A DNA stretch of 50,387 bases from Alphaproteobacteria bacterium (GTDB lineage: Bacteria; Pseudomonadota; Alphaproteobacteria; SHVW01). The stretch spans positions 1-50,387 of the forward strand of contig SHVW01000006.1 in the NCBI GenBank assembly GCA_009694085.1, given 5' to 3'. This document shows, in pieces, positions 825-30,573 of the stretch. The notes below the pieces were generated by a model. The model saw only the letters and a program-made list of their open reading frames with translations. It was not told the origin of the DNA and searched no databases. The stretch's first letter is position 1. Every line of letters begins with the position of its first letter. Both the position numbers and the translations under genes were made by a program.

Positions 825-1862
825 CTACACCTTCGTCCCCCGCCGCCGCATCAGCCACTGAATCAAAAACGGCATCGTCAGCACCACGCTGATCATGCGG
901 GTGGCGTGATGGGTCGACACGAAAGCCGTATCGATGTCGAGAGCCAGCGCCACCAGGCTCATCTCCGCCAGCCCACCCGGCGCGAAGGATAGGACCAGGC
1001 TCTGCATGCTGAGCCCGGTCAGGTGGTGGAGCACCCAGGCGAAGACGACGGTCAGGCTGAGCAGGATCGCGGCCGATGCGCTGCCGGCCACCGCCATTCG
1101 CCTGACCTCGGCGAAGGGTACGCCGGCGAAGCGCGCGCCGACCGCCGAACCCATCACAACCTGCGCGAGGGCCACGATCTCCCAAGGCGGGCGATGGGAG
1201 CTGAGTCCGGTCAGGTGGACGATGGCGCTCAAACCCAGCGGCCCGATCAAGGGGGCAGCCGGCAGCTTCAGCCAGGTGGCGGCGAAATACCCGGCGACGC
1301 CGCAGGCGGCGAGCAGAGCGAACTCCGCAGGATCGAAAGCGAACAGGCCGAGGCCCGGGACTGACTGAACAGGCGGCACATAGCCCTCGACGAAGCGGAA
1401 CCAGAAGGGCAGTACCATCACCACGATGAACACGCGGGTGGAATGGCTGAGCGCTACCAGGCGGTCATCGGCGCCGTTCGCTTGGGCCAGCACGACCATT
1501 TCACCCAGCCCGCCCGGTGTCGCACATAGCAAAGAGGTCAAGGGATCGTGGCCGAAGGATTTACGGAACAGGATCAGGACCAGCAGGGTCGCGGCCACGA
1601 CATAGACGATCACGCCGATCAGGCTGATGGCCCAGGCCTCCAGGCGCGGCAGCACGTCGGGGGTGAAGGCGCTGCCCAACATGACGGCAATCACGACCAC
1701 CATGGTCTGGCGCAGCTTGCCCGGCACGCGCTGGGGCACGCCGGCGATCGAGGCCGCCGTGGTCGCCGCCATGGCGCCCAGCATCCAGGGCAACGGCAGG
1801 CGCAGCCAGTCGAACAGCGCGCCGCCGAGCGTGCCGATCGCCAGCGCGGTTAGAATCGGCAT
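825..1862 (-). CDS. AbrB family membrane protein/transporter
   Basis: MPILTALAIGTLGGALFDWLRLPLPWMLGAM…, two repeated hydrophobic halves typical of AbrB-type membrane proteins; the longer ORF to 2696 is upstream shadow sequence. Confidence 0.8.
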   Translation of the reverse strand: MPILTALAIGTLGGALFDWLRLPLPWMLGAMAATTAASIAGVPQRVPGKLRQTMVVVIAVMLGSAFTPDVLPRLEAWAISLIGVIVYVVAATLLVLILFRKSFGHDPLTSLLCATPGGLGEMVVLAQANGADDRLVALSHSTRVFIVVMVLPFWFRFVEGYVPPVQSVPGLGLFAFDPAEFALLAACGVAGYFAATWLKLPAAPLIGPLGLSAIVHLTGLSSHRPPWEIVALAQVVMGSAVGARFAGVPFAEVRRMAVAGSASAAILLSLTVVFAWVLHHLTGLSMQSLVLSFAPGGLAEMSLVALALDIDTAFVSTHHATRMISVVLTMPFLIQWLMRRRGTKV

Positions 1863-1900
1863 GACAGCGCGGCGCCCAGGGCGCCCAGATTCTTGGAGGC

Positions 1901-2848
1901 TCAGACGAAGCGGCCGAGGCGCACTGCGGTCTGGCCCTTGGTCAACCAGCGCGAGGGCATGATCAGCACGCAATTGTCGTAGGGCGTCAGCACGTCGCGC
2001 CCGCTGTCGCGGCCGAGCACGGTGCCCTTGCGCGCGATCACCTCCATGCCCTTGAAGTCTTGGACGAACTGGAAATCCTCGCTCGCCACGGTGATCGCGT
2101 CGGTGATTTCGATCACTTTCTGCGGCACGTCGGCCTTCTTGCTGTGGCGCGCGATGAAGGCGGGGTCGATGATGTCGGTATGCTTGAGGAAGCGAAGCGT
2201 GGACTCGATCGCCACCTCGACGCTGTTGCGCTCCCAATGCTGGCCGCATTCGATCAGCATGGCATTGCGCTTGTCTGTGCCATCGCCGAAGAAGCGATAG
2301 TCGCGCAGCCGCTTGCCAGCGGCATGACCCTGATCGCTGACCACGATTTCGGGATAGGCCATGGCACGGGCGAGTTGACGGCCTTTCTCCAGCGGGCCGC
2401 TCAGCAGCAAGGGCACGGTTTTGTGCTGCATGGAGTGGATGTCGAAGAGGTAATCGACGGTATCGACGATCGGCCGGATCTGGCGCGCCCGGCGCAGTTC
2501 CACCGAATCGCGCGGGCCGTCGAGCACCGCCTCGGCCCAAACCCGATTGAAATCCTCGTCGACGAAACGCGAGGTCGTGGGATTGGCCGGGTCGAATTTG
2601 TTGAAGGCGGCGATATTGTTGAACCCCAGGGTCAGCTTGCCGCGCACGGGCCGCACATTGTTGCCGAATAGGAAATCGAGTGCGATGGCACCGCACAACT
2701 CGTTGCCATGGGTGACGGCGGCGATCATGACATGAGGGCCGGGCTGGCCGCTGTCGAAGGTGGTCACGTACTCGACGCCTGTGTTGCCGGCGCGATAGGC
2801 CGCGATATCGGGGGCCTTCAATTCGATCGGGTAGATGTCCTGGGGCAA
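1901..2848 (-). CDS. Succinylglutamate desuccinylase/aspartoacylase family (M14-like) deacylase
   Basis: AAVTHGNELCGAIAL, DEDFNRVW, DIHSMQ Zn-peptidase-like motifs; probable TTG start at 2848 preceded by AGGAG; the annotated ATG at 2932 would overlap the next gene. Confidence 0.75.
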   Translation of the reverse strand: MPQDIYPIELKAPDIAAYRAGNTGVEYVTTFDSGQPGPHVMIAAVTHGNELCGAIALDFLFGNNVRPVRGKLTLGFNNIAAFNKFDPANPTTSRFVDEDFNRVWAEAVLDGPRDSVELRRARQIRPIVDTVDYLFDIHSMQHKTVPLLLSGPLEKGRQLARAMAYPEIVVSDQGHAAGKRLRDYRFFGDGTDKRNAMLIECGQHWERNSVEVAIESTLRFLKHTDIIDPAFIARHSKKADVPQKVIEITDAITVASEDFQFVQDFKGMEVIARKGTVLGRDSGRDVLTPYDNCVLIMPSRWLTKGQTAVRLGRFV

Positions 2849-2858
2849 ATCGGCTCTC

Positions 2859-4025
2859 CTATTGGGCGCAGACTCTGTCCATGAGCCTGTGCAGAAAGGT
2901 TTCGCACTGGGCGAGATGGTCGAGGCTGACATACTCGTTCGGCTTATGCGCCATGTCGATATCGCCGGGGCCGCAGACGATGGTTTCGATGCCGGCTTCC
3001 TGGAAGCGGCCGGCCTCGGTACCGAAGGCGACCTTGGCGACCGCGTTGGCGCCGGTCAGCGCCTTGCCCAGCTGTACAGCTTCCGCGCTCTCATCCATAG
3101 CGAGACCCGGGATTTCCGACAGCTCCTCCCAGGTAAAGCCGCTTTCGGCATGAACGGTGCGCATCTCCGGCAGCAGCTTAACCTCGGCGAAGGATTTGAC
3201 CTCGGCGAACAGGGTTTCGGGATTGTCGCCGGGGATGTAGCGGAACTCGAAATCGAAATGGCAATCGAGCGGCACGATGTTGAGCGCCGTGCCGCCCTGG
3301 ATGATTCCGGTATGGGCGGTGGTGTGGGGGATGTCGAAATCGCGGTTATAAGGTCCGCGGTCGCGGAAGCGCCGCGCCATGCCCTTGAGATAGGCGACGA
3401 TTTCGCAAGCCACCTCGACCGCGTTGACGCCAAGGGGGGCGAGGGAGGAATGACATTCCAGCCCGCGTACCCGGCAACGCCAAGATTTCTTGCCCTTGTG
3501 CGCGATCACCAGCTTCATGCCGGTGGGCTCGCCGACGATGCAGGTCTTGGGCCGGATGCCGGCCTGCTTGAGATCGGCGATCAGCCGGGTCACGCCGATG
3601 CAGCCGACCTCCTCGTCATAGGAAAAGGCGAGGTGGATCGGCACTTTCGGCTTGCGCCGGATGAACTCGGGCACGAGTGCCAGCACGATGGCGACAAAGC
3701 TCTTCATGTCGCAGGTGCCGCGGCCGAACAGCTTGCCGTCTTTTTCCACCGCCTTGAACGGATCGGTGGTCCAGGGTTGGCCGTCCACGGGCACCACGTC
3801 GGTATGGCCGGAGAGCACGATGCCGGGGCCGGTCGCGGGGCCCAGCGTGGCGAACAAATTCGCTTTGCGCCGGTCGTCGTCATAGGTCAGCCGGCTCTCG
3901 ATGCCGAAACCGGCGAGGTAGGTTTTGACCCAACCGATCAGCTCCAAATTGGAATCGCGGCTGGTCGTGTCGTAGCCGATCAGGCGGCGAATCATCTCCA
4001 GGCTGGCGTCGGTCGGTCGTGGCAC
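2859..4025 (-). CDS. argE: Acetylornithine deacetylase (ArgE)-like M20 peptidase
   Basis: LSGHTDVVPVDGQPW, GRGTCDMKSFVA, CGPGDIDMAHKPNEYV motifs. Confidence 0.85.
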   Translation of the reverse strand: MPRPTDASLEMIRRLIGYDTTSRDSNLELIGWVKTYLAGFGIESRLTYDDDRRKANLFATLGPATGPGIVLSGHTDVVPVDGQPWTTDPFKAVEKDGKLFGRGTCDMKSFVAIVLALVPEFIRRKPKVPIHLAFSYDEEVGCIGVTRLIADLKQAGIRPKTCIVGEPTGMKLVIAHKGKKSWRCRVRGLECHSSLAPLGVNAVEVACEIVAYLKGMARRFRDRGPYNRDFDIPHTTAHTGIIQGGTALNIVPLDCHFDFEFRYIPGDNPETLFAEVKSFAEVKLLPEMRTVHAESGFTWEELSEIPGLAMDESAEAVQLGKALTGANAVAKVAFGTEAGRFQEAGIETIVCGPGDIDMAHKPNEYVSLDHLAQCETFLHRLMDRVCAQ

Positions 4026-21086: not shown

Positions 21087-21190
21087 GGCGCGATGAAATC
21101 AACCGAACGCGCGGTGTGATGTCCATCGAGAACTGACGGGAATTCGGTTGGCGGCCGTTATTTTTTCGACTGATCTCGTTCGGCGCTTCT

Positions 21191-21230
21191 CTTGCGCGCT
21201 GCGCAAGGGCAATTCTTGCGCGATGCGCAA
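21191..21230. promoter_or_regulatory. Tandem palindromes TTGCGC-N3-GCGCAA (candidate operator)
   Basis: CTTGCGCgctGCGCAAG (21191-21207) and TTGCGCgatGCGCAA (21216-21230), centres 24 bp apart, between divergent tupB and fdhD. Confidence 0.6.
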
Positions 21231-21290
21231 TGGAGATGATCGTCGATGAGATGGATTGCGATCTTTCGGGCTCGCCCCCATATTCCTCCC

Positions 21291-23417: not shown

Positions 23418-23942
23418 ATGCCGATGGCGTTCAGTGAGCACTTGCCTATCGGCATCGTCGTCGAGCGGCGCAAGCTAACCAATCCGTGGCAAGAATTCGG
23501 CTGGAGCACGGCCGCTGTCGTGCTCGATCCGCCGGAGAGCCTGGATTTCGGCAGATTGCTGGAGCAGGGCGAGGGCTGGGCGCGATTTTATGCCGGCCTC
23601 CTGCCGATCGAATTGCATCGCCGCCACACCGCTAGCTATCGCGACAATATGATGACCGGCCGGCCCCAGGTTTACGTGGTTCTGCGCAAGAGCGAGAGCG
23701 CCGGCGAACTCGCCTATCACCCCGTTCTTGCCACGATCGCACCGGACGAGGCCCAGATCTACCTCGACACGGGAGAAGACCTGGTCGACACCGTCGTCAT
23801 GCCCGAACCGGTTCAAGCCTGGGTCGATCGCTTCATCGACGCCCACCATGTCGAGGCGCCGGTCTATAAGCGTCAGCGCAAGCCTTACGATCCGCGCAAG
23901 GGCGGCATGCCTGGACAGGGGCCAGGGCGGGGTGGATCATGA
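23418..23942 (+). CDS. DUF3305 domain protein
   Basis: LPIGIVVERRKLTNPWQEFGWSTAAVVLDPPE and position immediately before DUF3306 in an FDH cluster. Confidence 0.75.
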   Translation: MPMAFSEHLPIGIVVERRKLTNPWQEFGWSTAAVVLDPPESLDFGRLLEQGEGWARFYAGLLPIELHRRHTASYRDNMMTGRPQVYVVLRKSESAGELAYHPVLATIAPDEAQIYLDTGEDLVDTVVMPEPVQAWVDRFIDAHHVEAPVYKRQRKPYDPRKGGMPGQGPGRGGS

Positions 23943-24499
23943 GCGAGGATGGCTTTCTCGGGCGATGGTCGCGCCTGAAGCGGGCGCAGGTGAAACCTGC
24001 GCCGCCGGCCGTTGCGGTCGAACCGGCACCGGTTCCCCACCTACCGGCAAAGTCTGACGAGGCCAATCCGCCAAAGCTGGCGATCCGGGCGGAGGATTTA
24101 CCGCCAATCGATGGCCTGACTATGAAGTCCGACATATCGGCTTTTCTTCAAGAGGGCGTGCCGGAAGATCTGAAAAACCTGGCGCTGCGGAAGATATGGG
24201 CGAGCGATCCGTTTCTGGCCAATCCCGATCCGTTGGACATCCATAACCTCGACTACACCATGCCCGTGCTGACCGAGGCGGTGAAGACTTTGTACCAGGT
24301 GGGTCGCGGCATGGTGCTACCCGAGGATGAAAAGAAGGCCCCGACTGCGCCCGGCGAATCGGAGGCGATGCCAGCGCCCGCCGCGGTGGCGACTGCCACG
24401 GAGCCTGTTGCCGAATTGCCGCCAATGGCGGTGCCCGAGGTTCCGATTTCGGTTGCCGTCGCACCTCTACCGGTGACAGACCCGGCAAAATCGGGCTGA
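23939..24499 (+). CDS. DUF3306 domain protein
   Basis: EDGFLGRWSRLKRAQVK…DISAFLQEGVPEDLKNLALRKIWASDPFLANPDPLDIHNLDYT. Confidence 0.8.
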   Translation: MSEDGFLGRWSRLKRAQVKPAPPAVAVEPAPVPHLPAKSDEANPPKLAIRAEDLPPIDGLTMKSDISAFLQEGVPEDLKNLALRKIWASDPFLANPDPLDIHNLDYTMPVLTEAVKTLYQVGRGMVLPEDEKKAPTAPGESEAMPAPAAVATATEPVAELPPMAVPEVPISVAVAPLPVTDPAKSG

Positions 24500-24596
24500 T
24501 TTCCGTTCATCCCGTGGCTATCGACAATGGCCACAGGAACTTTGTTATTTTTCTAAGCTTTAAGCCGTCTTGCAAGCCATGCATGGGGCTTGACGC

Positions 24597-24614
24597 TGCA
24601 TCGCGCCCGATGCA
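24597..24614. promoter_or_regulatory. Inverted repeat TGCATCG-CGCC-CGATGCA upstream of the HTH-TorD gene (candidate autoregulatory operator)
   Basis: Perfect 7-bp arms, 4-nt spacer, 12 bp before ATG 24627. Confidence 0.5.
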
Positions 24615-24626
24615 AGCTTGGCGGGT

Positions 24627-25424
24627 ATGAAACTTAAAGAATACTTTGCGAGGGAGGGAATGACGGCGTCGCAGTTTGCGGCACGCATCGGTCGTGCCGT
24701 GTCGACCGTAACCCGCCTCGCCAATGGCGAAACCGTCCCGGAACCAGAAACCATTGCCAAGATCGTCGAGGCAACGGGCGGTGCCGTGCAGCCCAATGAT
24801 TTTTTCCTGACCCAATCGCCGCTACAAGCAGCCGACAATGCCGACGTGGCCGAGGAAGACTTGTTGCGCGCCCAGTGCTATCGCCTGCTGGCGCGACTAT
24901 TGGCGAGCCCACCCGATGGCGAGACGCTGGGTGTGGTCCGCGCGCTCCAAGGCGACGGCTCGCCCTTCGGTCAGACGTTGAATGCGTTGGCCGCGGTCGC
25001 GCGACAGACTGGCGCCGAAGCGGCGGCGGAAGAATTCCATGCCCTGTTCATCGGCATGCCCCAGGGCGAGTTGACGCCCTTCAGTTCCTATTACCTCACC
25101 GGCTTCCTGCACGAAAAACCGCTGGCGGCGTTGCGCGGCGATCTGGCGCGGTTGGGCCTGGCGGGTGCGGCGGATAGCCATCAATCGGAAGACCACATGG
25201 CCGCGCTGTGCGAGGCGATGGCGTGCCTGATCACCGGGGCCTATGGCCGGCCGGTCGATCTGGCTGCCCAACGCCGCTTTTTCGACGCCCATCTCGGCTC
25301 ATGGGCTCACCGCTTCTTCCAGGATTTGGAGGGCGCGAAATCGGCCGTTTTCTTCATGCCGGTCGGCCGCCTGGGCCGGCTGTTCATGGACGTGGAAACG
25401 CAGGCATTCGACATGGCGGCTTAA
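24627..25424 (+). CDS. XRE/Cro-like HTH domain fused to a TorD/DmsD-family molybdoenzyme chaperone
   Basis: N-term MKLKEYFAREGMTASQFAARIGRAVSTVTRLANGETVPEPETIAKIVEATGG (HTH); C-term LLRAQCYRLLARLLASPP…EEFHALFIGMPQGELTPFSSYYLTGFLHEKPLAALRGDLARLGL…SEDHMAALCEAMACLI (TorD-like); single uninterrupted ORF. Confidence 0.8.
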   Translation: MKLKEYFAREGMTASQFAARIGRAVSTVTRLANGETVPEPETIAKIVEATGGAVQPNDFFLTQSPLQAADNADVAEEDLLRAQCYRLLARLLASPPDGETLGVVRALQGDGSPFGQTLNALAAVARQTGAEAAAEEFHALFIGMPQGELTPFSSYYLTGFLHEKPLAALRGDLARLGLAGAADSHQSEDHMAALCEAMACLITGAYGRPVDLAAQRRFFDAHLGSWAHRFFQDLEGAKSAVFFMPVGRLGRLFMDVETQAFDMAA

Positions 25425-25464: not shown

Positions 25465-25665
25465 ATGCAGGACAAACCGAAATCGAAACAGATCGCGCGC
25501 CGCGCGTTCTTTCGCACAGCCACGGTCGGCGCGACGGCAGCCGGCGTGGCCGCCCTTGGACTGAGCGCGCCCAAGGCCCAGGCCCAACCGGGCACGGAAG
25601 GTTCTTCGGCGGGCTACCGCGAGACCGACCACGTCAAGCGCGTTTACGCGCTGTCGCGCTTCTAG
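25465..25665 (+). CDS. Formate dehydrogenase region Tat-signal small protein
   Basis: RRAFFRTATVGATAAGVAALGLSAPKA Tat motif, 66 aa, directly before FDH alpha. Confidence 0.8.
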   Translation: MQDKPKSKQIARRAFFRTATVGATAAGVAALGLSAPKAQAQPGTEGSSAGYRETDHVKRVYALSRF

Positions 25666-25692: not shown

Positions 25693-28587
25693 ATGCTCAC
25701 CAAAAAGAGCAACGGGTCGGCCGCCGGCCCACGCATGACGAAGGCGCTGACTGCCTTGACCGGCGCGGCGATCGATCGTCGTAGCTTCCTGAAGCGTTCC
25801 GGCCTCGCCGCGAGCGGTCTTGCCGCTGCCGCCGGCCTCAAGGCCGGGCTGGTCGGTCAGGCCGACGCCGCGACCGCAGCCGCCAATTCCGGCGCGGTCA
25901 AGCTGGTCAAGAACATCTGTACCCATTGCTCGGTCGGCTGCACGGTCACCGCCGAGGTGGTCAACGGCGTGTGGATCGGCCAGGAGCCGAGCTTCGACAG
26001 CCCGTTCAATCTGGGCGCCCATTGCGCCAAGGGTGCCGCCATCCGCGAGCACGCTCATGGCGAGCGCCGGCTGAAGAGTCCGATGAAGCTGGTCGGTGGC
26101 AAGTGGCAGAAGATCGGCTGGGATCAGGCAATCAATGAGGTCGGCGACAAGATGCTGGATATCCGGCAGAAATCGGGACCCGACTCGGTGTACTGGCTCG
26201 GTTCGGCCAAATTCTCTAACGAGCAAGCCTATCTGATCCGCAAATTCGCCGCCTTCTGGGGCACCAACAACGTCGATCACCAAGCGCGCATTTGCCATTC
26301 GACCACGGTCGCCGGCGTGGCCCAGACTTGGGGCTACGGCGCGATGACCAACTCGTACAACGACATTCATAACAGTCGCGCGATCTTCCTGATCGGCGGC
26401 AATCCGGCCGAGGCTCATCCGGTCTCGCTGCTTCATCTGTTGAAGGCCAAGGAGCAGAATGGCGCGCCCCTGATCGTGTGCGACCCGCGCTTTACGCGCA
26501 CGGCCGCCCATGCGACGGAGTATGTGCGCTTCCGCCCGGGCACCGACGTGCCCCTGATCCACGGCATCCTGCACCACATCTTCGCCAACGGATGGGAAGA
26601 CAAGGAATTCATCCGCAAGCGCGTGTGGGGTATGGACCAGATCAAGGCCGAAGCTGCCAAGTGGACGCCGGAGGAAGTCGAGCGCGTCACCGGCGTGCCC
26701 GGCTCGCAGCTTCTGCGCGTCGCGCGCACCATGGCGACCAACAAACCCGGCACCGTGATCTGGTGCATGGGCGTGACTCAGCACCATGTCGGCAACAACA
26801 ACACGCGCATCCTGTGTGTGCTGCAATTGGCGCTCGGCAATGTCGGCGTCGCCGGTGGCGGCACCAACATCTTCCGCGGCCATGACAATGTGCAGGGCGC
26901 CACCGACCTCGGCCTCGATGTCTCCACCTTGCCCGGCTATTACGGCTTAGTCCCTGGCGCCTGGGCCCATTGGGCGCGGGTGTGGGACGTCTCGGTCGAC
27001 TACCTCAAGGGCCGCTTCAAGGACGACAAGCATATGGAGAAGCCGGGCATCCCGGTCTCTCGCTGGGCCGATGGCGTGCTCGAGGCGAAGGAGAATATCG
27101 ATCAGCCCGATAGTCTGAAGGCCATGGTCTATTGGGGCCACGCGCCGAACTCTCAGGCTCGCTTGCCCGACTTCAAGAAGGCCATGGACAAGCTCGACCT
27201 GCTGGTGGTGATCGATCCCTATCCGACCATGACCGCGGTCATGCACGACCGTAAGGACGGGGTCTATCTGCTGCCCGCTTGCACCCAGCTTGAGATCGAC
27301 GGCTCGCGCACCGCGTCGAACCGCTCGCTCCAATGGGGCTACCAGATCATGAAGCCTCTGTTCGAGTCGAAATCGGACCACGAGATCGCTTATCTCTTCG
27401 CCAAGAAGTTCGGCTACGAGAAGGAGATGTTTAAGAACATCAAGGTCGACGGCACCGTGCCGTTGCCGGAATCCATTCTCGGCGAGATCAATCGCGGCGT
27501 GTGGACGATCGGCTATTCCGGCATCTCGGCCGACCGCCTGAAGAAGCACTTGGACAACCAGGCGACCTTCGATCGCACGACACTGCGCGCCAATGGCGGG
27601 CCGTGCGATGGCGAGTTCTATGGTCTGCCTTGGCCGTGTTGGGGCACGCCGGAGATGAAGCATCCGGGCACGCCGAACCTGTACGACAATTCCAAGCCGG
27701 TGGCCGAGGGCGGGCTCGCCTTCCGCAACCTGTTCGGGGTTGAGCGGAACGGTGAGAACCTGCTGGCCGACGGCGCCTACAATGTCGGTTCGGAGATCAA
27801 GGACGGCTATCCTCAGTTCACCCTGGGCGTGCTCAAGAAGCTCGGCTGGGACAAGGATCTGACGGAAGCCGAGATGGCCGCGATCAACCGGGTCGGCGGC
27901 AGCGCTCCCGATAACGTGTCCTGGGCGAACGATTTGTCCGGCGGCATCATCCGGGTGGCGATCAAGCATGGCTGCGCGCCGTTCGGCAATGCCAAGGCCC
28001 GTGCCGTGGCGTGGAACTTCCCGGACCCAGTGCCTTTGCATCGCGAGCCGCTTTACACGACGCGGCGCGATCTGGTCGAGAAGTACCCGACCTGGGACGA
28101 CCGTAAGAGCTTCAATCGCCTGCCCACGCTCTACAAGAGCATCCAGGCCAAGGACGTGTCGAAGGAGTTCCCGATCATCCTGACCTCGGGACGGTTGGTC
28201 GAATACGAGGGCGGCGGTGACGAGACTCGGTCTAATCCGTGGCTCGCCGAGTTGCAGCAGGACATGTTCGTCGAGATCAACCCGTTCGACGCCAACCAGG
28301 CCGGCATCAAGGACGGCCAGATGGTGTGGGTGCATTCGCCGAACGGTGCGGATACGCGGCTGAAGGTCAAGGCGATGATCACCGAACGGGTCGGCAAGGG
28401 CGTCGCCTTCATGCCGTTCCATTTCGGCGGCCATTGGATGGGCAAGAACCTGCGCGATCGGTATCCCGCCGGCGCCGACCCCTATGTGCTGGGCGAGGCT
28501 GCCAACACCGCAACCACCTATGGCTACGATTCGGTGACCCAGATGCAGGAAACCAAAGTCACCCTCTGCCGTATCGAGAAAGCGTAA
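25693..28587 (+). CDS. fdhA: Formate dehydrogenase alpha subunit (Cys-type, Tat-exported)
   Basis: Tat signal RRSFLKRSGLAASG; CTHCSVGCTV…HCAKGAA 4Fe-4S site; ARICHSTTVAGVA active site with Cys; molybdopterin oxidoreductase throughout. Confidence 0.95.
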   Translation: MLTKKSNGSAAGPRMTKALTALTGAAIDRRSFLKRSGLAASGLAAAAGLKAGLVGQADAATAAANSGAVKLVKNICTHCSVGCTVTAEVVNGVWIGQEPSFDSPFNLGAHCAKGAAIREHAHGERRLKSPMKLVGGKWQKIGWDQAINEVGDKMLDIRQKSGPDSVYWLGSAKFSNEQAYLIRKFAAFWGTNNVDHQARICHSTTVAGVAQTWGYGAMTNSYNDIHNSRAIFLIGGNPAEAHPVSLLHLLKAKEQNGAPLIVCDPRFTRTAAHATEYVRFRPGTDVPLIHGILHHIFANGWEDKEFIRKRVWGMDQIKAEAAKWTPEEVERVTGVPGSQLLRVARTMATNKPGTVIWCMGVTQHHVGNNNTRILCVLQLALGNVGVAGGGTNIFRGHDNVQGATDLGLDVSTLPGYYGLVPGAWAHWARVWDVSVDYLKGRFKDDKHMEKPGIPVSRWADGVLEAKENIDQPDSLKAMVYWGHAPNSQARLPDFKKAMDKLDLLVVIDPYPTMTAVMHDRKDGVYLLPACTQLEIDGSRTASNRSLQWGYQIMKPLFESKSDHEIAYLFAKKFGYEKEMFKNIKVDGTVPLPESILGEINRGVWTIGYSGISADRLKKHLDNQATFDRTTLRANGGPCDGEFYGLPWPCWGTPEMKHPGTPNLYDNSKPVAEGGLAFRNLFGVERNGENLLADGAYNVGSEIKDGYPQFTLGVLKKLGWDKDLTEAEMAAINRVGGSAPDNVSWANDLSGGIIRVAIKHGCAPFGNAKARAVAWNFPDPVPLHREPLYTTRRDLVEKYPTWDDRKSFNRLPTLYKSIQAKDVSKEFPIILTSGRLVEYEGGGDETRSNPWLAELQQDMFVEINPFDANQAGIKDGQMVWVHSPNGADTRLKVKAMITERVGKGVAFMPFHFGGHWMGKNLRDRYPAGADPYVLGEAANTATTYGYDSVTQMQETKVTLCRIEKA

Positions 28588-28599
28588 GGAGTCCGAACC

Positions 28600-29196
28600 A
28601 TGGCCCGCATGAAATTCCTTTGCGACGCCGAGCGCTGCATCGAGTGCAACGCCTGCGTCACCGCCTGCAAGAACGAGCACGAGGTGCCGTGGGGCGTGAA
28701 CCGACGCCGCGTCGTCACCATCAATGACGGCAAGCCCGGCGAGCGCTCCATCTCGGTCGCCTGCATGCATTGTTCCGACGCGCCCTGCAAGGCCGTCTGC
28801 CCCGTCGATTGCTTCTACACCACCGACGAAGGCATCGTGCTGCACAACAAGGATCTGTGCATCGGCTGTGGTTATTGCTTCTACGCCTGTCCCTTCGGCG
28901 CGCCGCAATATCCGCAGGCCTCCAATTTCGGTAGCCGCGGCAAGATGGATAAGTGCACCTTCTGCGCTGGCGGCCCCGAAAAAGCCCATTCCGATGCCGA
29001 ATACAAGAAATACGGCCGTAACCGTATCGCCGAGGGCAAATTGCCGCTATGCGCGGAGATGTGCTCGACCAAGGCGTTGCTGGGTGGCGATGGCGACGCC
29101 ATCTCGGCGATCTATCGCGAGCGTGTGGTTGCACGCGGCTTCGGCTCCGGCGCATGGGGTTGGGGCACGGCCTACCAGGCCAAGTCGGGCTCCTAG
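28600..29196 (+). CDS. fdhB: Formate dehydrogenase beta subunit, 4Fe-4S
   Basis: CIECNACVTACKNEHEVPWG, CMHCSDAPCKAVCPVDCFY, CIGCGYCFYACPFGAPQ. Confidence 0.93.
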   Translation: MARMKFLCDAERCIECNACVTACKNEHEVPWGVNRRRVVTINDGKPGERSISVACMHCSDAPCKAVCPVDCFYTTDEGIVLHNKDLCIGCGYCFYACPFGAPQYPQASNFGSRGKMDKCTFCAGGPEKAHSDAEYKKYGRNRIAEGKLPLCAEMCSTKALLGGDGDAISAIYRERVVARGFGSGAWGWGTAYQAKSGS

Positions 29197-29559: not shown

Positions 29560-30573
29560 ATGACGGCACGTACATGGTTCGGCGCGGTCGCGCTGTCGCT
29601 GCTACTGGCTCTCGGCTTTGCCGGCGAGGGCGTCGTCGTGGCTCCGGCGTTCGCCCAGCAGATCGGCACGGCCACCACCCAACCTGGCACGGATGTCGAG
29701 GGCAACGCGGCCATGTGGCGCGCCATCCGCCAGGGTGGCCAAGGCCAGGTCAGCATTCCCGACACCCAGGCCGGGCGTTTGATCCAATCCCAGGGCGAAA
29801 GCTGGCGCTCCATCCGCAACGGACCCTTGTCGACCTATGGCGCTTGGGCCCTGCTCGGCATGGTCGTGCTGCTCGCCCTGTTCTTCGTGATCCGCGGCCG
29901 CATCCGCATCGAACACGGTTGGTCCGGCCGGACGATCGAGCGCTTCAACGGCATCGAGCGCTTCGCTCATTGGCTGACCGCAACCACATTCATCGTGTTG
30001 GCGCTAACGGGTCTCAACTTGCTCTATGGCCGCTACATTCTGCTGCCCCTAATCGGTCCCGGCCCATTCGCCACCATCTCCATGTGGGGCAAGATCGCGC
30101 ATAACTACGTTGCCTTCGCCTTCGCGCTCGGCGTGTTGATGATGATTGTGCTGTGGATCGGCCACAACATTCCCAACAAATACGATCTGGAATGGATCAT
30201 GCGCGGCGGTGGGATGTTCACGCGCGGCAGCCATCCCCCCTCGCGCAAGTTCAACGCGGGCCAAAAGGTTCTTTACTGGTCGGTCGTATTGGGCGGCATC
30301 GCGCTGACCTGGACGGGGATCGCCCTGATGTTCCCGTTCGAATTCGGCGGCATGCGGGACATGCAGTTCATGCAGCTCGTTCACGCCGCGGTCGCCGTTG
30401 CCCTCATCGCGATCATCGTGGCCCATGTCTATATCGGCACGCTTGGGATGGAAGGCGCCTTCGACGCAATGGGAACCGGTATGGTGGACGAGAACTGGGC
30501 GCGCGAGCACCACAATATCTGGGTTGCCGAGGTGCGCGGCGAGCGCCTGCCGGGGCACGGCCATGACGATTAG
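29560..30573 (+). CDS. fdhC: Formate dehydrogenase gamma subunit (cytochrome b556)
   Basis: IERFAHWLTATTFIVLALTGLNLLYGR, multi-TM, conserved His; ATG at 29560 with SD. Confidence 0.9.
   Translation: MTARTWFGAVALSLLLALGFAGEGVVVAPAFAQQIGTATTQPGTDVEGNAAMWRAIRQGGQGQVSIPDTQAGRLIQSQGESWRSIRNGPLSTYGAWALLGMVVLLALFFVIRGRIRIEHGWSGRTIERFNGIERFAHWLTATTFIVLALTGLNLLYGRYILLPLIGPGPFATISMWGKIAHNYVAFAFALGVLMMIVLWIGHNIPNKYDLEWIMRGGGMFTRGSHPPSRKFNAGQKVLYWSVVLGGIALTWTGIALMFPFEFGGMRDMQFMQLVHAAVAVALIAIIVAHVYIGTLGMEGAFDAMGTGMVDENWAREHHNIWVAEVRGERLPGHGHDD

Follow-up and report, generated by a model that had tools for sequence, protein, structure and literature searches.

TorD-family chaperones of FDH loci carry fused DNA-binding domains and may regulate their own operons

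The window analysed here, a stretch of 50,387 nucleotides from an alphaproteobacterium (contig SHVW01000006.1), encodes a protein in which an XRE/Cro-type helix-turn-helix (HTH) domain and a TorD-family chaperone are joined in one ORF (positions 24627 to 25424, forward strand; 265 aa). We consider it probable that this chaperone regulates its own FDH operon, by negative feedback that is gated by FdhA. An earlier note on this DNA had proposed that the chaperone acts as its own transcription factor, and this is very probably the case, as cognate operators are found before other HTH-TorD genes and follow the type of the DNA-binding domain.

The reading frame runs from ATG to TAA without an internal stop. 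Translation, Pfam and profile searches all confirmed the earlier description of a single ORF of about 265 aa that joins a Cro/XRE-like HTH to TorD. The HTH domain (aa 1-60, 24627 to 24806, forward strand) matches the Pfam models HTH_31 (2e-7) and HTH_3 (2.9e-7) at aa 3-51, above the curated cut-offs. It is predicted to form a five-helix Cro-like fold with a pLDDT of about 95, and a Foldseek search with the predicted domain matched the N-terminal domain of prophage YdaS (8co2) with a probability of 1.00. Intact profile match and fold together identify it as a DNA-binding domain of the Cro/CI type (XRE). A linker (aa 61-73, 24807 to 24845, forward strand), in which no codon would serve well as the start of a separate TorD, leads into the TorD chaperone domain (aa 74-265, 24846 to 25421, forward strand). 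In an alignment, the latter is 61% identical to an unfused protein of Azospirillum soli; it matches Nitrate_red_del (TorD/NarJ, PF02613) at aa 112-231 (5.2e-25; 88.5 bits, cut-off 22.2), and its profile matches the solved TorD 1n1c (2.4e-11) as well as DmsD. The TorD part of the predicted structure is of low confidence because the alignment was shallow, with six sequences. The window protein has QSEDHM (25170 to 25200, about aa 184-189), whereas the other seven aligned sequences have EPED, an EPxDH-like motif. We take this position to be close to residues reported to be important for peptide binding in DmsD, and QSED in place of EPED could alter client binding.

The fused gene is part of an FDH locus. 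Its upstream neighbours, assigned by Pfam and conserved, encode DUF3305 (23418 to 23942, forward strand) and DUF3306 (23939 to 24499, forward strand), followed by an intergenic region of 127 bp (24500 to 24626), the presumed promoter of the fusion gene. Downstream, likewise on the forward strand, lie the genes for the FDH region Tat-target small protein (25465 to 25665; TIGR02811, 8.9e-12, 45.2 bits, just below the cut-off of 48.45), for the FDH alpha subunit FdhA (25693 to 28587; Tat motif DRRSFLKRSG), for the FDH3 beta subunit FdhB (28600 to 29196; NF038355, 9.8e-104) and probably for the FDH gamma subunit, a membrane cytochrome (29560 to 30573; an ORF whose start was inferred, in a gene order that is annotated alike in Bradyrhizobium). 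The gene calls thus bear out that the genes for the Tat small protein and FDH alpha come directly after the fusion. FdhA, a molybdo/tungstoenzyme with a Tat signal, is the presumed client of the chaperone encoded beside it, and the order DUF3305-DUF3306-torD-tat-fdhAB is kept in nearly all relatives. Scanning this part of the window for sigma-70 promoters gave no match at the scanner threshold. The gap before the gene was considered as a marker of the fusion and rejected, since similar gaps often precede unfused torD genes.

A run of six T lies at 24800 to 24805, where the earlier note had placed it, and an assembly or sequencing indel in this run might have merged torD with an HTH gene that was originally separate. 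In an in silico frame test, one T fewer ends the HTH as NDFS followed by a stop codon, as noted before, and stand-alone HTH relatives do end soon after NDFF. However, the TorD frame would then be left without an ATG. The earliest of the usual start codons would be a GTG inside DVAEED, and a TorD made from there would lack roughly 10-25 N-terminal residues that are present in most unfused homologues. With one T more, the HTH continues into a nonsense frame. The earlier note had named separate HTH and TorD ORFs at homologous loci as the sign of such an artefact; across all the related loci retrieved, a YdaS or XRE ORF adjoins none of the unfused torD genes. Since no separate HTH gene stands beside any unfused torD, the frameshift reading has little support. 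Moreover, in-frame HTH-TorD fusions occur in 36 homologous loci, one of them in the same genus. An artefact is unlikely, and an indel that joined two genes at the T run appears highly improbable to us.

These homologous loci come from a survey of about 1,150 whole genomes, searched with a TorD profile or with P0001, from which 194 FDH-type TorD ORFs or domains were assembled. The earlier note had suggested a search of genomes for HTH-TorD architectures. An N-terminal YdaS-type HTH, which is of the phage Cro type and unlike that of the window, is found at the same position in 36 of the 194 TorD ORFs, and Zn_ribbon_IS1595 is joined to TorD in two. The YdaS-TorD fusions span at least 11 alphaproteobacterial families and include the window's own genus; Pfam YdaS_toxin matched two of them that were tested with 1e-13 to 3e-15. 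Gene order is shared as well, with nearly all fusions standing in the order DUF3305-DUF3306-torD-tat-fdhAB. Among the TorD ORFs assembled, only the window has an XRE-type fusion, and searches of the roughly 1,150 genomes (samples of the class, the phylum and several orders), of the collections of plasmids and phages and of genome_contigs found no second XRE-TorD. The window is not a member of the YdaS-TorD class, which combines a YdaS HTH with one of two operators, A or B; its HTH is of the XRE type and it has neither operator. It is a parallel case.

Some individual loci deserve mention. In L067 and L071 (G088, G369), the IS1595 zinc ribbon and TorD are fused within the same FDH locus, and no catalytic transposase domain was detected. 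In L193, the second torD copy of G524, DUF3306 and TorD share one ORF that has neither a YdaS domain nor an operator. FDH-locus TorD matches with one in-frame TAA or TAG were reported for G417, G458, G550, G573 and G441.

The YdaS-TorD genes fall into type A, with a QPSVSxW-like recognition helix (27 genes), and type B, with QxxVWHW (nine genes). In the TorD tree, where support on the relevant forks is 81-92, the A-type fusions are found in one clade of 34 rows, seven of them HTH-less, and the B-type fusions in two clades. The XRE fusion of the window is placed among 58 unfused TorDs, nearest to an Azospirillum-like group and apart from the YdaS-carrying congener, and with this moderate support it looks like an independent gain. 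Given the tree positions of the A, B and window fusions, DNA-binding domains have probably been added to the FDH TorD chaperone several times.

The upstream regions of all loci were covered by the operator tests, the inverted repeat having first been noticed upstream of fusions. The core ATAG-N7-CTAT (YATAG-N7-CTATR), counted as an exact match within about 130 nt of the start, precedes 25 of the 27 A-type genes, none of the nine B-type genes and none of the 158 unfused genes, against a mean of 0.035 in shuffled sequences. Conversely, ACAAAC-N2-GTTTGT with at most two mismatches precedes all nine B-type genes, mostly at -32, but none of the 27 A-type genes and one of the 158 unfused genes; both sets of counts include related loci and are not statistically independent. 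The 19 non-redundant A-type sites vary in their 7-nt spacer and flanks, and as the ATAG/CTAT core defined these sites, only spacer, flanks and controls are informative there. The seven HTH-less members of the A clade lack the A-type motif; for 25/27 versus 0/7 within this clade, a hypergeometric estimate that ignores relatedness is about 7e-6. At the level of sequence, the presence of the operator goes with that of the domain, and a change in one goes with a change in the other. Since operator type tracks the type of the DNA-binding domain, we see strong comparative evidence that YdaS-TorD chaperones bind their own promoter. In four loci (L068, L250, L252, L257), a second copy of the B-type operator lies about 220 nt further upstream (-249 to -258), at a distance that would allow looping.

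At eight or more A-type loci, the space between a TTGNCN (-35) and a TATNNT (-10) box is taken up by the operator, a repressor-like position at which a bound protein should obstruct RNA polymerase. Four Bradyrhizobium-like loci have the operator a little further upstream, immediately before a -35-like TTGACS-N17. That position is compatible with activation, and for this reason the regulatory sign may differ between lineages. For most A-type loci, repression would be the simplest reading.

For the XRE fusion of the window, the palindrome TGCATCG-CGCC-CGATGCA (24597 to 24614), which ends 12 nt before the ATG, is a suggestive candidate operator. No other perfect copy exists in the window or elsewhere in the 3.08-Mb genome; chance would produce about 0.25 equally good inverted repeats in 128 bp. 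We did not accept the palindrome as proof of an operator: it is not significant alone, and stand-alone XRE relatives show different palindromes. Two of these relatives (L018, L020) have palindromes 25-45 nt before their ATG, comparable with 24597 to 24614, and the position of the window palindrome resembles these as well as the type B sites. Feedback on a wider set of genes (fdhD, Moco and W-uptake genes), as envisaged in the earlier note, found no support, since no further operator copies were present in the loci, window and genome searched. In the region 21087 to 21290, which that note had singled out, there is no copy of the palindrome with up to three mismatches. In fusion carriers, the A-type operator was likewise confined, within the 10 kb of the FDH locus, to the region upstream of the fused gene.

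The XRE, YdaS and zinc-ribbon domains all appear to come from mobile elements. The HTH tail of the window protein, GAVQPNDFF, also ends stand-alone phage Cro-like proteins, and the domain matches phrog_35, 'transcriptional repressor', with 8e-9; the YdaS-type domain likewise matches phrog_35. Stand-alone XRE relatives are present in phages, prophages and viral contigs. One of them, in a Rhizobium phage, is annotated as a 'cro-like repressor' protein, and another on an Azospirillum plasmid is divergent to a second HTH gene beside phage-like genes. The IS1595 zinc ribbon is a domain of transposases. Alternatively, a piece of phage cro could have been fused to torD recently and by chance, leaving a non-functional, inert N-terminal tag; the finding of just one XRE example, on a lone branch, would speak for this. 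However, the fold of the HTH is still predicted confidently as Cro-like and its Pfam match is intact, and the parallel YdaS fusions have conserved cognate operators, so that we regard an inert tag as quite improbable.

Related domains were also seen on other enzymes. In L014 (G002:C61, minus strand; ORF 1075-3057 in the reverse strand), a Cro/XRE domain and a glutamine synthetase form one ORF, and the HTH tail, MIQANDI, is related to that of the window; this is possibly another self-regulating enzyme. Likewise, a single ORF (L010:1498-2700, G009:C15) combines a Cro/XRE domain of this kind with a MeaB-type GTPase.

TorD-family proteins bind Tat signals or apo-enzymes, and their occupancy would thus report the maturation load. 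We propose that a phage Cro-type domain was captured at the N-terminus of an FDH-specific TorD chaperone and that the fusion protein, presumably dimeric, would recognise a palindromic operator within the torD-tat-fdhAB(C) promoter. Negative feedback is most likely, in which the free chaperone would repress the operon and unmatured FdhA on the TorD domain would change this repression, most likely by relieving it. Synthesis of chaperone and enzyme would then follow the maturation load. Gating of DNA binding by apo-FdhA or by the FdhA Tat peptide is plausible, and the XRE version of the window may act likewise through 24597 to 24614. Cro-type proteins are autoregulators, and the fusion might also be an ungated Cro-like autorepressor that exerts simple negative feedback on chaperone and FDH, with the TorD domain as a dimer interface only. 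The operators at the fusion gene's own promoter would suit such a protein, as would the solved TorD 1n1c, which is described as dimeric. We find this doubtful, however, because at least three kinds of DNA-binding domain on a client-binding chaperone would be better explained if the state of the chaperone matters. Returning to feedback gated by FdhA, its extension to the whole family is more tentative: FDH TorDs may repeatedly have captured mobile-element domains (phage YdaS, phage Cro/XRE, IS1595 zinc ribbon) and become transcription factors that sense unmatured enzyme, gated by apo-enzyme or Tat peptide.

The name TorDfdh denotes redox enzyme maturation chaperones of the TorD/NarJ subfamily (Bay et al. 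2015, PMC4464133). The window protein shares with TorDfdh the chaperone family and an operon with DUF3305, DUF3306, the fdh Tat protein and the FDH subunits. The main text of that survey makes no mention of helix-turn-helix, DNA-binding or fusion, whereas the window chaperone carries a DNA-binding domain and the torD gene of its YdaS relatives has a cognate operator. The same small HTH is known from temperate-phage repressors of the YdaS/Cro type (phrog_35, Pfam YdaS_toxin, PDB 8co2), and some stand-alone phage-type relatives have palindromes near the start of the repressor gene itself, at a place comparable with that of the candidate operator in the window. The phage repressors, however, are stand-alone proteins of mostly 65-80 aa, while here the HTH is fused to a metabolic chaperone outside a prophage switch. 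Closest in concept are trigger enzymes, among them PutA and BirA, which combine a metabolic function with DNA binding at the promoter of their own pathway (PMC6978683). The fusion would resemble them in uniting both functions in one polypeptide, as the comparative evidence from operators suggests. It differs from them in that its partner is an enzyme-maturation chaperone and the presumed signal an unmatured protein instead of a metabolite, and in that its DNA-binding domain was apparently gained several times from different mobile elements.

In a full-text literature search, whose coverage excludes most subscription papers, we found no report of a DNA-binding TorD, NarJ or DmsD, including HTH and YdaS forms. 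This agrees with the earlier note, which was aware of no characterised HTH-TorD regulator; the architecture itself, however, is common and mostly of the YdaS type, not XRE. A public Bradyrhizobium record names the YdaS-TorD gene just 'molecular chaperone TorD family protein'.

How the synthesis of complex Mo/W enzymes is matched to their slow maturation is largely unknown. If our proposal is true, a chaperone that regulates the operon of its own enzyme would be a direct, one-protein answer to this problem, and phage repressors and a transposase domain would have been reused as sensors of enzyme maturation. The two operator codes make the idea testable in cultured Bradyrhizobium and other alphaproteobacteria, and it is of relevance for heterologous FDH production for CO2 reduction.
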